27,799 bases of DNA from a virus. The number at the start of each line of letters is the position of its first letter. The first letter of the stretch is position 1. Below the pieces are notes generated by a model. The model did no database searches. It had not been told where the DNA came from and saw nothing but the letters and a program-made list of their open reading frames with translations. Made by a program: the position numbers and the translations under genes. The stretch covers positions 1-27,799 of IMG/VR virus record IMGVR_UViG_3300012954_000054; one strand, 5' to 3'. Shown piece by piece: positions 7,436 through 23,868 of the stretch.

Positions 7436-7509
7436 AAGGGTGAAGTGTTACGGTAGCACAAGGGATTCCAAATCCTTTAGCGTGGGTTCGACTCCTACCA
7501 CCCTTGCCA
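7436..7509 (+). tRNA. tRNA-Trp (anticodon CCA)
   Basis: A 74-nt cloverleaf. The acceptor stem pairs 7436-7442 with 7499-7505 (7 bp), followed by discriminator G7506 and an encoded CCA at 7507-7509. The D-stem is GTGT/GCAC (7445-7448 with 7456-7459). The anticodon stem AGGGA/TCCTT (one G-T) encloses the loop TTCCAAA, with anticodon CCA at 7468-7470. The T-stem GTGGG/CCTAC (one G-T) encloses TTCGACT. Position 8 is A instead of the near-universal U. It lies between two protein genes, within the operon. Confidence 0.9.
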
Positions 7510-8066: not shown

Positions 8067-8450
8067 ATGTTAAATAAAGATTTTTTTGTTGGTTATAGTC
8101 GTATGATGAAAGACTTGGAACGCTTTAATAAGATTCCAGGATACCCTCCACACAATATCATTGAAGACAAAGATAAATTTGTCATTGAGTTAGCTGTGGC
8201 AGGGTTCGACAAAAAAGATATTGATATTACTCTTAAAGAGAAGAAGCTAACTATTGTTGGCAGTAAATCCAGTGACTCTTCCACAAAATATATTTACAAG
8301 GGTGTGTCGTCAAAAAATTTTAGTAAAAGCTTTATGCTAGGCGATTACATGGAAGTAATTGATGCTACAGTTAAGAATGGTATGCTTCTTGTTACTATTC
8401 AGGAAGTTGTGCCAGATGAAAAGAAACCATTAAAGGTAAAGATTAAATGA
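8067..8450 (+). CDS. Small heat shock protein (Hsp20/IbpA type)
   Basis: A 127-aa ATP-independent chaperone that would bind unfolding proteins. The alpha-crystallin domain spans residues about 28-112: PPHNIIEDKDKF, the IELAVAGFDKKDIDI strand-turn (40-54), LTIVGSK, the IbpA-like GVSSKNFSKSFML (79-91) and the A-x-V-x-N-G-x-L signature (100-107). A short N-terminal arm and a basic C-terminal end (PLKVKIK) replace the usual I-x-I tail. AAAGGATT lies 9 nt upstream. It is the first gene after the terminator, so it probably has its own promoter. Hsp20 genes are frequent in marine cyanophages and related phages. The stop overlaps the next gene (ATGA). Confidence 0.93.
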   Translation: MLNKDFFVGYSRMMKDLERFNKIPGYPPHNIIEDKDKFVIELAVAGFDKKDIDITLKEKKLTIVGSKSSDSSTKYIYKGVSSKNFSKSFMLGDYMEVIDATVKNGMLLVTIQEVVPDEKKPLKVKIK

Positions 8451-8719
8451 ACTTGAGAGATAAAATGATAGGTGCTTTGGAAAACCACGCTAAAGCAAAC
8501 ATAGAGAAACACAAAATGAACGTTGAAGTATTCTTAGAGAATGCTGTTGGAGTAGGTGAGCATTCTTCTGTTATGGAGTCTATTGAAACACAACTGGGTA
8601 TGATTGAGAAGTATGAAGGTCAGCTAGAAATTTTAGCAAAACACTTTCCGAAATCTTACAATGGTGCTTTGTTGTGTGAATGTGAAGAAAACAATGAAAC
8701 TTGCCAGTGTGACTCTTAA
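8447..8719 (+). CDS. Conserved-looking hypothetical protein
   Basis: A 90-aa mainly helical protein. It begins NLRDKMIGALENHAKANIEK and continues with HKMNVEVFLENAVGVGEH, then a helix (MESIETQLGMIEKYEGQLEIL). The C-terminus carries four Cys (CECEENNETCQC), a possible metal site. I recall hypothetical proteins with the same HAKxxIxKHKMNVEV...GVGEH pattern in marine phages; no function is known. It is translationally coupled to hsp20 and is the last gene before the regulatory gap. Confidence 0.7.
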   Translation: MNLRDKMIGALENHAKANIEKHKMNVEVFLENAVGVGEHSSVMESIETQLGMIEKYEGQLEILAKHFPKSYNGALLCECEENNETCQCDS

Positions 8720-8746
8720 AAAGTTGCAAGGATTATTCAAAAATAA

Positions 8747-8764
8747 ATACCTGACGTTTAAGAA
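8747..8764 (+). promoter_or_regulatory. Repeated 18-bp motif, copy 2 (candidate phage promoter)
   Basis: ATACCTGACGTTTAAGAA, one base different from copies 1 and 3. It lies in the gap before the packaging and structural genes. Flanking bases can pair as GCAAG/CTTGC and TATTC/GAATA (8726-8738 with 8762-8774, with a 3x3 internal loop). Confidence 0.6.
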
Positions 8765-8783
8765 TAAAACTTGCTAGGCTCTG

Positions 8784-8894
8784 CCAAAGTGATACTCTGG
8801 ACTCTCTTACTGGTACTTGAAAAGAGATGTTCCGTATGCCCCCCGATAGTACCCTCCCCCCAAATAATCGGGGGGTTATTAAGTATCACTTTGG
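8784..8894. repeat. Nested inverted repeats: three-way-junction-like element
   Basis: A perfect 13-bp inverted repeat, CCAAAGTGATACT (8784-8796) with AGTATCACTTTGG (8882-8894), encloses two further hairpins: TCTCTT/AAGAGA (8803-8808 with 8822-8827) and CCCCCCGAT/ATCGGGGGG (8839-8847 with 8867-8875). Three stems in 111 nt, in a region with no gene, suggest a structured RNA or a protein-recognised DNA site. Confidence 0.75.
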
Positions 8895-8910
8895 TATCCT
8901 TAGTGTAGTT

Positions 8911-8940
8911 ATAATTTATTGTTATTAATTAATAAATTAT
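8911..8940. repeat. AT-only 10-bp palindrome
   Basis: ATAATTTATT (8911-8920) and AATAAATTAT (8931-8940) are perfect inverted repeats around a 10-nt spacer. A TATAAT box (8910-8915) overlaps the left arm. The surrounding 100 nt are almost pure A/T. It may be an operator, a -10 element or a DNA-unwinding region. Confidence 0.4.
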
Positions 8941-9034: not shown

Positions 9035-9397
9035 ATGGCAAATCCTCATCCGACTAAACCTCAGATGGGCGGTCGCAGAGAAGGTGCTGGACGTCCTAAA
9101 GGATCTAAGAACATTAATTCTATGGCTTCTGTAAAGAAACTTGAAGAGTTAGGTTTTGATCCCATTGAGATGATGGTTCAAAAATATAATGAGATACAAG
9201 AAAAGTTAGCTGATGGAACTGTTAAAGATGGTTCTGGAGCACAAGCCCAGTTAATAGCGACACAAGGCACATTAATAAATAACTTAATGGCTTATGGCTA
9301 TAAGAGAATCCCTGATAAAATTGAGCAAGAGGTTACTGAAAAGAAACCTATCTCAATACTACTCACTGATAATAAAAAGGAAGAAGACAATGAGTGA
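9035..9397 (+). CDS. Probable terminase small subunit
   Basis: A 120-aa protein that begins with the GGRREGAGRPKGSKN segment (residues about 12-26), which I know from the DNA-binding N-termini of many phage small terminases. After it comes a helical region (VKKLEELGFDPIEMMVQKYNEI ... LIATQGTLINNLMAYGY) and a charged tail. Small terminases recognise the packaging site and load the large terminase, which lies 1.8 kb downstream. I chose ATG 9035, preceded by AAAAGGAAAG, over the in-frame TTG at 9008. Confidence is moderate because the N-terminal motif also occurs in other phage proteins. Confidence 0.7.
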   Translation: MANPHPTKPQMGGRREGAGRPKGSKNINSMASVKKLEELGFDPIEMMVQKYNEIQEKLADGTVKDGSGAQAQLIATQGTLINNLMAYGYKRIPDKIEQEVTEKKPISILLTDNKKEEDNE

Positions 9398-11182: not shown

Positions 11183-12514
11183 ATGTCAGATATACAGTTA
11201 CATGAAAAACAGTCAGAAGTTATTAGAGACTTATTTGTTGAAGATAATTGTCGTTACGCTGTTGTTAATGCTAGCCGAGGCTTTGGAAAGTCTTACCTTG
11301 CAGCAACAGCCGCTATAATAGCTGTACAAGAATTAATGAATCTAGATGAGTCAGTGCCTAATAAAAATGTGGCACTCATCGCCCCTACTTACAGCCAAGC
11401 AGTAGATATTTATTATCCACTGATAGCTTGGCAACTAGGGATGGAAGGCTTTGCAGATAAAGCTTCCAAGGCAGCAGGTCAATTCTGGTTTCCTAATAAC
11501 GTACAACTTAAGCTATGGTCTTATGAAGCGTCTCTTAGAATGCGTGGTACAGGTCAATACTTTGTAGTAGCCGATGAGGTTACTTCGTGGAAAGGCGCAG
11601 GGATGAATCTCAAAGAATCTTGGGAATCAATTATACAACCTTGTGTAGCTACTAGGTGGTCACCTATGAATGCTAAAAAGTTTAATGCCAACTCTGGTAG
11701 AGCACTAATTATTAGTACTCCTAGAGGCTATGACTATTTTTATGAAATGTACAACAGACAAGATTATGACAAAGATTGGAAGAGTTATACCTATACATAT
11801 AGAGATTCTCCTCTTTTAGATGAAGAAGAGATTGATCAAATAAAACTAACACTTGATCCTTTAAAGTTTGCCAGAGAGTATATTGCAAGCTTCGAAGACT
11901 CTGGTAGCAATGTGTTCTACACATTTAACCGTAAGGATCATATTGACCAAAACTTAATTAAGTTTGAAGATGGTGAAGATGTTCATGTAGCTATTGACTT
12001 TAACGTTGGTATAATGGCTAGTGTTATCTTTGCTATTAGAGGTGGTCAGATACATATATTAGATGAAATGCAAGGTCATCCTGATACTGAATCTTTAGCA
12101 AAGGCATTAACTGATAAATATCAAGGACATAGGATAATCAGTTATCCAGACCCTTCAGGTAGAGCTAGAAAAACTTCTGCTGCTGTAGGTGTTACAGACT
12201 TTCGTATACTAGAAACACACAAAATAATCACTAGAGCACATAGTAAAGCACCTCCTATAATTGATAGTGTAGCTGCTGTAAACAAAAAGTTTAAAAATGC
12301 TAACGGTGATATTGATATGTTAATTCATCCTAAATGTGTAAACACAATCAAATCGATTGAAAGAACTCAATGGTTAGAATCAAATCCTGATTCAGCTACA
12401 ATAGATAAAAAAGAAGGAATAGAACACTGGACAGATGCCTTACGGTACGCTGTTGAATATCTATATCCTATCCGAGCAGGCTCAAAAGTAACAACTAGAG
12501 GTTTCGGATTTTAA
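11183..12514 (+). CDS. Terminase large subunit (packaging ATPase-nuclease)
   Basis: A 443-aa motor that cuts the replicated concatemer and pumps DNA into the prohead. The N-terminal ATPase has a Walker A variant, SRGFGKSY at 31-38, Walker B with catalytic acid FVVADE at 127-132, and the coupling segment LIISTPRG at 175-182. The C-terminal RNase H-like nuclease shows VAIDFNVG (Asp272), ILDEM (Asp294/Glu295), YPDPSG (Asp323) and HWTDALRYAVEY near residue 415. Length is normal for the family. In most tailed phages portal and capsid genes follow; here two basic proteins and tail-fibre genes follow instead. The ribosome site is weak, suggesting coupling to the upstream gene. Confidence 0.93.
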   Translation: MSDIQLHEKQSEVIRDLFVEDNCRYAVVNASRGFGKSYLAATAAIIAVQELMNLDESVPNKNVALIAPTYSQAVDIYYPLIAWQLGMEGFADKASKAAGQFWFPNNVQLKLWSYEASLRMRGTGQYFVVADEVTSWKGAGMNLKESWESIIQPCVATRWSPMNAKKFNANSGRALIISTPRGYDYFYEMYNRQDYDKDWKSYTYTYRDSPLLDEEEIDQIKLTLDPLKFAREYIASFEDSGSNVFYTFNRKDHIDQNLIKFEDGEDVHVAIDFNVGIMASVIFAIRGGQIHILDEMQGHPDTESLAKALTDKYQGHRIISYPDPSGRARKTSAAVGVTDFRILETHKIITRAHSKAPPIIDSVAAVNKKFKNANGDIDMLIHPKCVNTIKSIERTQWLESNPDSATIDKKEGIEHWTDALRYAVEYLYPIRAGSKVTTRGFGF

Positions 12515-23825: not shown

Positions 23826-23868
23826 CTAGGGGTTACAATACCTGACGTTAAAGAAGGGTAGCCCCTAG
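23826..23868 (+). promoter_or_regulatory. Hairpin holding repeated motif copy 3
   Basis: CTAGGGGTTA (23826-23835) pairs with TAGCCCCTAG (23859-23868) over 10 bp with one G-T. The 23-nt loop holds ATACCTGACGTTAAAGAA (23838-23855), identical to copy 1, followed by GGG at 23856-23858. It lies between phoH and the tail-tip module. A promoter, a weak terminator or a processing site are possible; no strong T-tract follows. Confidence 0.65.

Follow-up and report, generated by a model that had tools for sequence, protein, structure and literature searches.

A conserved pseudoknotted RNA element at the predicted 5′ end of late transcripts in uncultured marine phages

What does a perfect inverted repeat do in the gap between two open reading frames, directly ahead of the late genes of a phage? 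The question was raised by a 27.8-kb fragment of an uncultured phage (27,799 nucleotides; hereafter the window), the gap lying between the open reading frames at 8447-8719 and 9035-9397. The first-pass annotation of this locus had proposed a three-way-junction-like structure that could be a leader RNA, a noncoding RNA, a replication origin, or a packaging signal. The nearest isolates of the window virus are the roseophages DSS3_PM1 and DSS3_VP1, with terminase large subunit identities of 66 and 64%, respectively; for the primase/helicase, identity is 50%, and to phage CRP-7 it is 55%. The element belongs to a common group of uncultured marine phages, and the window virus is marine. Upstream of the element, the window also carries a tRNA-Trp (CCA) gene in the early region (7436-7509), an Hsp20-like gene, and a ribonucleotide reductase gene.

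The annotated repeat was found at 8784-8796 and 8882-8894 and is the sole perfect 13-bp repeat with a gap of 30-150 nt in the window. Of 300 dinucleotide shuffles of the complete window, 36 contained such a repeat, and 3 did when at least five G/C were required in the arm. Also present were the reported C6/G6 arms (8839-8844 and 8870-8875) and, 20 nt ahead of the repeat, the motif copy (8747-8764). The three-way-junction layout stood as far as the stem and the two hairpins inside it are concerned, but its extent had been drawn too short on both sides and a further helix, P0 (8770-8778 with 8898-8908), was added; the pseudoknot, in which GGTACT in the P2 loop (8812-8817) pairs with AGTACC (8848-8853), had been missed. 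As redrawn, the element occupies approximately 8768-8910 on the + strand (∼140 nt) and consists of P0 and P1 stacked on each other, a three-way junction, P2, P3, and the 6-bp pseudoknot, joining the P2 loop to the strand just inside the base of P3. For 8764-8914 on the + strand, folding yielded −53.9 kcal/mol (z −5.6), a value reached by 0 of 200 shuffles; the − strand gave −48.4 kcal/mol (z −3.9). The pseudoknot is outside what the folding programs used here model. At 8854-8876, and also in relatives L003 and L004, there is a second C6 run that can take the G6 arm as its partner in a competing local hairpin.

Relatives were collected starting from the downstream gene (9035-9397, + strand), the first late gene in the window. 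Searching viral contigs with its protein yielded 91 relatives, of which 80 loci were kept; another 25 contigs came from scanning for the P1 arms around any interior, and scans for the core itself added to these. The list of carriers was compiled, and duplicates removed, by hand, resulting in the window and 62 other viral contigs with the core, representing 26 distinct cores. L139, with a loop-partner match but no P2 helix, was excluded as doubtful. Since the core scans fixed the letters of the pseudoknot, independent evidence for this pairing comes from the members found by the downstream-protein search and the P1-arm scan. Twenty-four main-type sequences were aligned using MAFFT, with the structure read from one row, giving alignment A2. 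This alignment omits one near-duplicate (L087) and the divergent L043, L059/L070/L071, L063, L118, L122-L124, and L126, so that its statistics apply to the main type of the element.

Standard pairs were found in 98.6% of the 1109 pair cells of A2, compared with 40-53% when the 3′ partners were slid. Two-sided changes occurred in 22 of the 47 pairs among these 24 relatives and in 131 cells; shuffles gave 37 such cells and the slid controls no more than 26. A measure of further pair types gave no excess over shuffles in either test, as expected where few pair types recur. In P0, 5 of 11 pairs had changed on both sides and 96.1% of cells were paired. P1 (8782-8796 with 8882-8896), which contains the 13-bp arms and whose 3′ strand is placed by both the inverted repeat and the pair statistics, was paired in 100% of cells, with two-sided changes in 4 of its 15 pairs and 10 invariant. 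The P2 hairpin (8799-8833), with its 13-nt loop of ACU, the pseudoknot strand, and UGAA, showed two-sided change in 7 of 8 pairs and 98.9% of cells paired. In P3, CCCCCCG (8839-8845) with CGGGGGG (8869-8875) was paired in 97.6% of cells, and 4 of 7 pairs were invariant. The pseudoknot alone was paired in 144 of 144 cells, with two-sided change in 5 of its 6 pairs; family-wide, six different pseudoknot pairs were encountered, every one complementary at 6 of 6 positions. Conservation drops directly beyond the 3′ strand of P0, which forms the 3′ edge of the conserved element. Compensatory changes, the absence of which in homologues had been set beforehand as a ground for abandoning the structure, are thus clearly present.

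The same alignment identifies the strand. G-U cells numbered 87 and A-C cells 1 over all A2 cells, and G-U pairs were retained at 10 pair positions; a DNA palindrome would not keep G-U, and the RNA is therefore read from the + strand. Covariance model R1 was searched against 52 sources (the window and 51 loci), and its 12 full-length main-type matches scored 124-166 bits on the + strand and 23.5-33 bits on the other strand. Together with the position behind a phage promoter, covariation and strand bias strongly support the annotation's options of a leader or noncoding RNA. Judged from sequence comparison, the locus almost certainly encodes a structured, conserved + strand RNA located where late transcripts are predicted to start.

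The same data bear on the options of a replication origin or a pac/cos packaging signal built on the inverted repeat, which would act as DNA. The repeat does adjoin the terminase genes, and in 12 of 80 loci the contig breaks off no more than 350 nt before the downstream gene, versus 1 of 80 within that distance on the other side. However, contigs can be expected to break at strong hairpins and variable sites as well, and these ends are probably assembly breaks at the hairpin or at a variable cassette; in L026 and L027 the sequence stops within P1. The element is spanned by contigs of 60.8, 59.9, and 47 kb, G-U at 10 pair positions makes poor DNA palindromes, and the covariation of P2 and the pseudoknot is at the RNA level, where the signal also accounts for the symmetry. 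As a genome-wide DNA binding site the P1 half-site was rejected, 12 matches with at most one mismatch being found in the window against 8.9 expected. The origin and packaging options are thus unsupported, and a DNA function is very improbable, although a headful pac site is conceivable.

Comparison of close relatives revealed how the element varies. Between the window and L003/L004, the promoter, P0, P1, P3, the 3′ flank, and the downstream gene are near-identical, while the whole P2 hairpin and its separate pseudoknot partner have both been exchanged. Two pairing types, GGTACT/AGTACC and GACATC/GATGTC, are common, and these alternate among L045/L049/L052 and L047/L048/L051. In a phylogeny of the downstream protein that has many weak forks (51 rows, 24 of them different), at least 10 changes of pseudoknot type are required. 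Such a pattern fits a cassette exchange between conserved P1 and P3 anchors.

The core was present in 50 of the 80 downstream-gene loci. Of the 30 others, 8 are cut at most 350 nt upstream, whereas the remaining 22 have more sequence, in each case at least 600 nt, and still lack the core. Model R1 gave no match in DSS3_PM1 or DSS3_VP1 either, and the element is therefore not essential to the whole group. A model search of 15 larger records gave matches in 10, at one place each. Using a looser search for the P2 loop and its partner in 31 loci, only the already known L043, L059, L070, and L122 were recovered. No match to the RNA was found by blastn against isolated phages with the window region and the L124 element as queries, and bacterial and archaeal genomes gave 0 matches to the GACATC-type core, the one pairing type covered.

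Among carriers, the main-type P1 retains the core AAGTGATA. Other helices take the place of P1 in L063 and its relatives, L118 and its relatives, and L123; L043 has a 24-bp helix there, and L122 one of ∼40 bp. Extra hairpins occur in J1/2 (L013, L040, L124) and in J2/3 (L118, L123, L126). In L059/L070/L071, P1 has only ∼5-6 bp, and P2 starts ∼6 nt, and its loop 16 nt, after the predicted +1. Since P1 can be replaced and the junctions can take up extra hairpins, the invariant part of the element consists of the P2 loop, the pseudoknot, and P3. Near-invariant unpaired bases are located in the P2 loop (ACU and UGAA), behind P3, and in the loop between P0 and P1. Conserved GAAA and CUGA letters had suggested a hammerhead- or pistol-like ribozyme, an idea that was dropped; Rfam gave no support.

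Some relatives without the core carry other structured leaders at the same place. In L054 (2473-2937), L057 (2644-2937), and L080 (2006-2586), structured G-rich sequence follows a promoter-like site (...CCCTTATGA); in L054 and L080 it comes after a strong hairpin of terminator type with a run of T. In DSS3_PM1 (L107, 3930-4340) and DSS3_VP1 (L108, 2130-2540), a very strong terminator-like hairpin is followed by AATAGGGTGCGTTAAAG-like copies and then by a structured stretch in which a hairpin loop with UGAA at its end holds the palindrome GGGATCCC; when this leader type was considered as a homologue of the element, a search for it gave only 2 contigs. L101, an 88.9-kb contig without the core, contains several AAAGTGATAC-like repeats in both orientations and looks unrelated.

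Directly upstream of the element lies a predicted phage RNA polymerase promoter of the form AATAC-N11-G (8746-8762, + strand), here in its late-class copy TTTAAGA. Its predicted +1 was placed at G8762 from T7-type promoter spacing. The motif ATANCTGACSTTWAAGA gave 30 exact matches in 8 records, on one strand per record, and the reversed pattern used as a control gave 0. One relative has CCTGACCTT in place of CCTGACGTT in all 6 of its promoter copies, and other clades have their own promoter versions with the same spacing, AATA[C/G]-N11-G; the promoter sequences thus differ between clades while the leader core is the same. After 3 of the 63 carriers that are cut too close upstream had been set aside, a phage promoter was found directly upstream of the element in 60 of 60 testable carriers (55 with the main version, 5 with a variant). 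In the window and six relatives (G001-G006), the element is preceded by the TTTAAGA version. A T7-like RNA polymerase (PF00940, E 1e-80 to 1e-88) was detected in 4 of the 6 IMG/VR relatives searched, and the upstream motif is predicted to be the promoter of the phage's own T7-type single-subunit RNA polymerase.

Several further observations were made on promoters and polymerases. In three relatives, a second late-class promoter precedes another operon, with a different leader that has its own hairpin; this hairpin, of the form GAGACAGA...TCTG..GTCTC, is similar in all three (L140, L141, and L142, corresponding to G001, 25.9 kb, G002, 11.1 kb, and G004, 28.9 kb). A third promoter copy in the window (23826-23868) lies inside an inverted repeat (CTAGGGGTTAC ... 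GGTAGCCCCTAG). No second promoter copy was found in L122 within its 8.9-kb contig. Besides the T7-like RNA polymerase detected in most of them, G001-G004 and DSS3_PM1 show another RNA_pol match, a weak one (E 1e-8 to 1e-9); it falls in open reading frames that measure ∼1450-1510 aa when complete and may represent an N4-like virion polymerase. A resemblance of the P2 loop to promoter letters was put down to coincidence, since both change independently between clades.

As had been annotated, an open reading frame (9035-9397) follows the element, but its product is small-terminase-like by inference, having no Pfam match and matching a PHROG of unknown function. An ordinary terminase large subunit gene follows at 11183. 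The genes behind the element were surveyed in 53 carriers, 10 of the 63 being set aside (9 missed by the end-of-P0 pattern and 1 cut). The first gene was small-terminase-like in 34, PHROG 8198-like in 11, and another in 8. A start codon with a Shine-Dalgarno match was located 23-244 nt behind the element in 52 of these 53, and in 51 of them the gap measured 23-227 nt. A further copy of the promoter motif between the element and the first gene was found in 0 of 53, and no terminator-like site was found in the corresponding stretch of the window, so the late genes appear to depend on transcripts that run through the element. Because the first gene varies, the element is not tied to one gene, and a gene-specific switch is less likely than action on the whole message.

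The explanation best matching these observations, which we hold at about an even chance, is that the element forms a structured 5′ leader acting in cis on the fate of the late mRNA, probably on its lifetime or processing. The late polycistronic mRNA would be made from the late-class promoter by the phage's T7-like RNA polymerase, its transcript starting ∼5-35 nt before P0, and the leader would fold during synthesis and act in cis whichever gene comes first. A compact 5′-terminal fold might resist host RNases and so set the lifetime of the late message; alternatively, the long P0-P1 helix might be a site of recognition and cleavage, through which the message is processed. That unpaired bases are conserved points to recognition of the fold by a protein or another partner. 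Conserved loop and junction bases exceed what a plain stabilizer needs, and this counts against such a role.

The main rival to a cis-acting leader is a noncoding RNA that is cut or released from the leader and acts in trans, for example by binding a host factor or as a structural part. It would account for the compact fold, the conserved unpaired bases, the sharp 3′ edge, and the indifference to the identity of the first gene, and by analogy with T7 the long P0-P1 helix, whose internal loop is conserved, might be cut by RNase III. The element is nevertheless followed by no terminator in the window, the genes behind it have no other copy of the phage promoter motif, and a ribosome-binding site can be as near as 23-26 nt (L015/L016 and L063/L065/L067), leaving a trans-acting RNA unlikely. 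We regard as similarly improbable a regulatory leader through which a ligand or a late phage protein switches the late operon, in the manner of a riboswitch or of autogenous repression. Its attractions are the three-way junction closed by loop pairing and the near-invariant unpaired bases, but with spacing that varies from 23 to 244 nt (52 of 53) and a changing first gene no common expression platform is visible, the window stretch has no terminator-like site, and no Rfam riboswitch was matched.

Among known RNAs, a like topology is seen in the prohead RNA (pRNA) of phi29, described (PMC6765105) as a basal stem and a three-way junction with two arms whose loops are complementary. The topology and the two mutually complementary, covarying segments are shared, and pairing within or between molecules would fit the sequences equally well. 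A packaging RNA in which intermolecular loop pairing builds a ring on the packaging motor is nonetheless highly unlikely here: the phage has an ordinary large terminase, Rfam gave no pRNA match even with E relaxed to 10, the element appears continuous with the late mRNA, neither a terminator nor a second promoter having been found, and intramolecular pairing explains the data as well. The complementarity also differs in comprising 6 bp with one partner just inside P3 and not in an end loop, and the element would be an mRNA leader in a phage of the TerL type. Only a slim chance is given to a released leader that would act in trans and pair with itself through P2 loop and P3 into a dimer or ring, with the swapped pairing types as self-recognition types; it could then serve the adjacent packaging motor as a pRNA analogue in a large-terminase phage.

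The cis-acting leader, in turn, may be compared with other structured RNAs. Late mRNAs of T7-like phages have structured 5′ leaders and RNase III sites, which are simple hairpins. A stem at the 5′ end of transcripts of a single-subunit phage polymerase, ahead of late genes, is common to both, whereas the element described here spans ∼140 nt, combines a three-way junction with a covarying pseudoknot, and is conserved between clades with differing promoters. The purine riboswitch is a three-way junction with two arms joined by loop pairing; junction and loop pairing are alike, but the present element has no matching core, Rfam match, or expression platform. GOLLD, ROOL, and other ornate RNAs are phage-associated and structured as well; compared with GOLLD and ROOL, the element is far smaller and again without an Rfam match. 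In Rfam 15, no match in the element was obtained at the gathering thresholds, and at E up to 10 the best sub-threshold match was abiF (20 bits versus 37 needed, E 0.22), which sits on the competing hairpin at 8854-8876. No description of the element was found in the literature searched; a 2023 survey of viral candidate structured RNAs may list it. With its strong covariation and covarying pseudoknot, the element is a structured RNA family undescribed in Rfam and in the literature searched.

For the biology of these phages, the recurrent swap of P2 together with its pseudoknot partner amounts to a natural double-mutant experiment. The finding places an elaborate RNA at the predicted first nucleotides of the late mRNA, and it raises the question why a phage with its own RNA polymerase would have such an elaborate RNA fold at the 5′ end.
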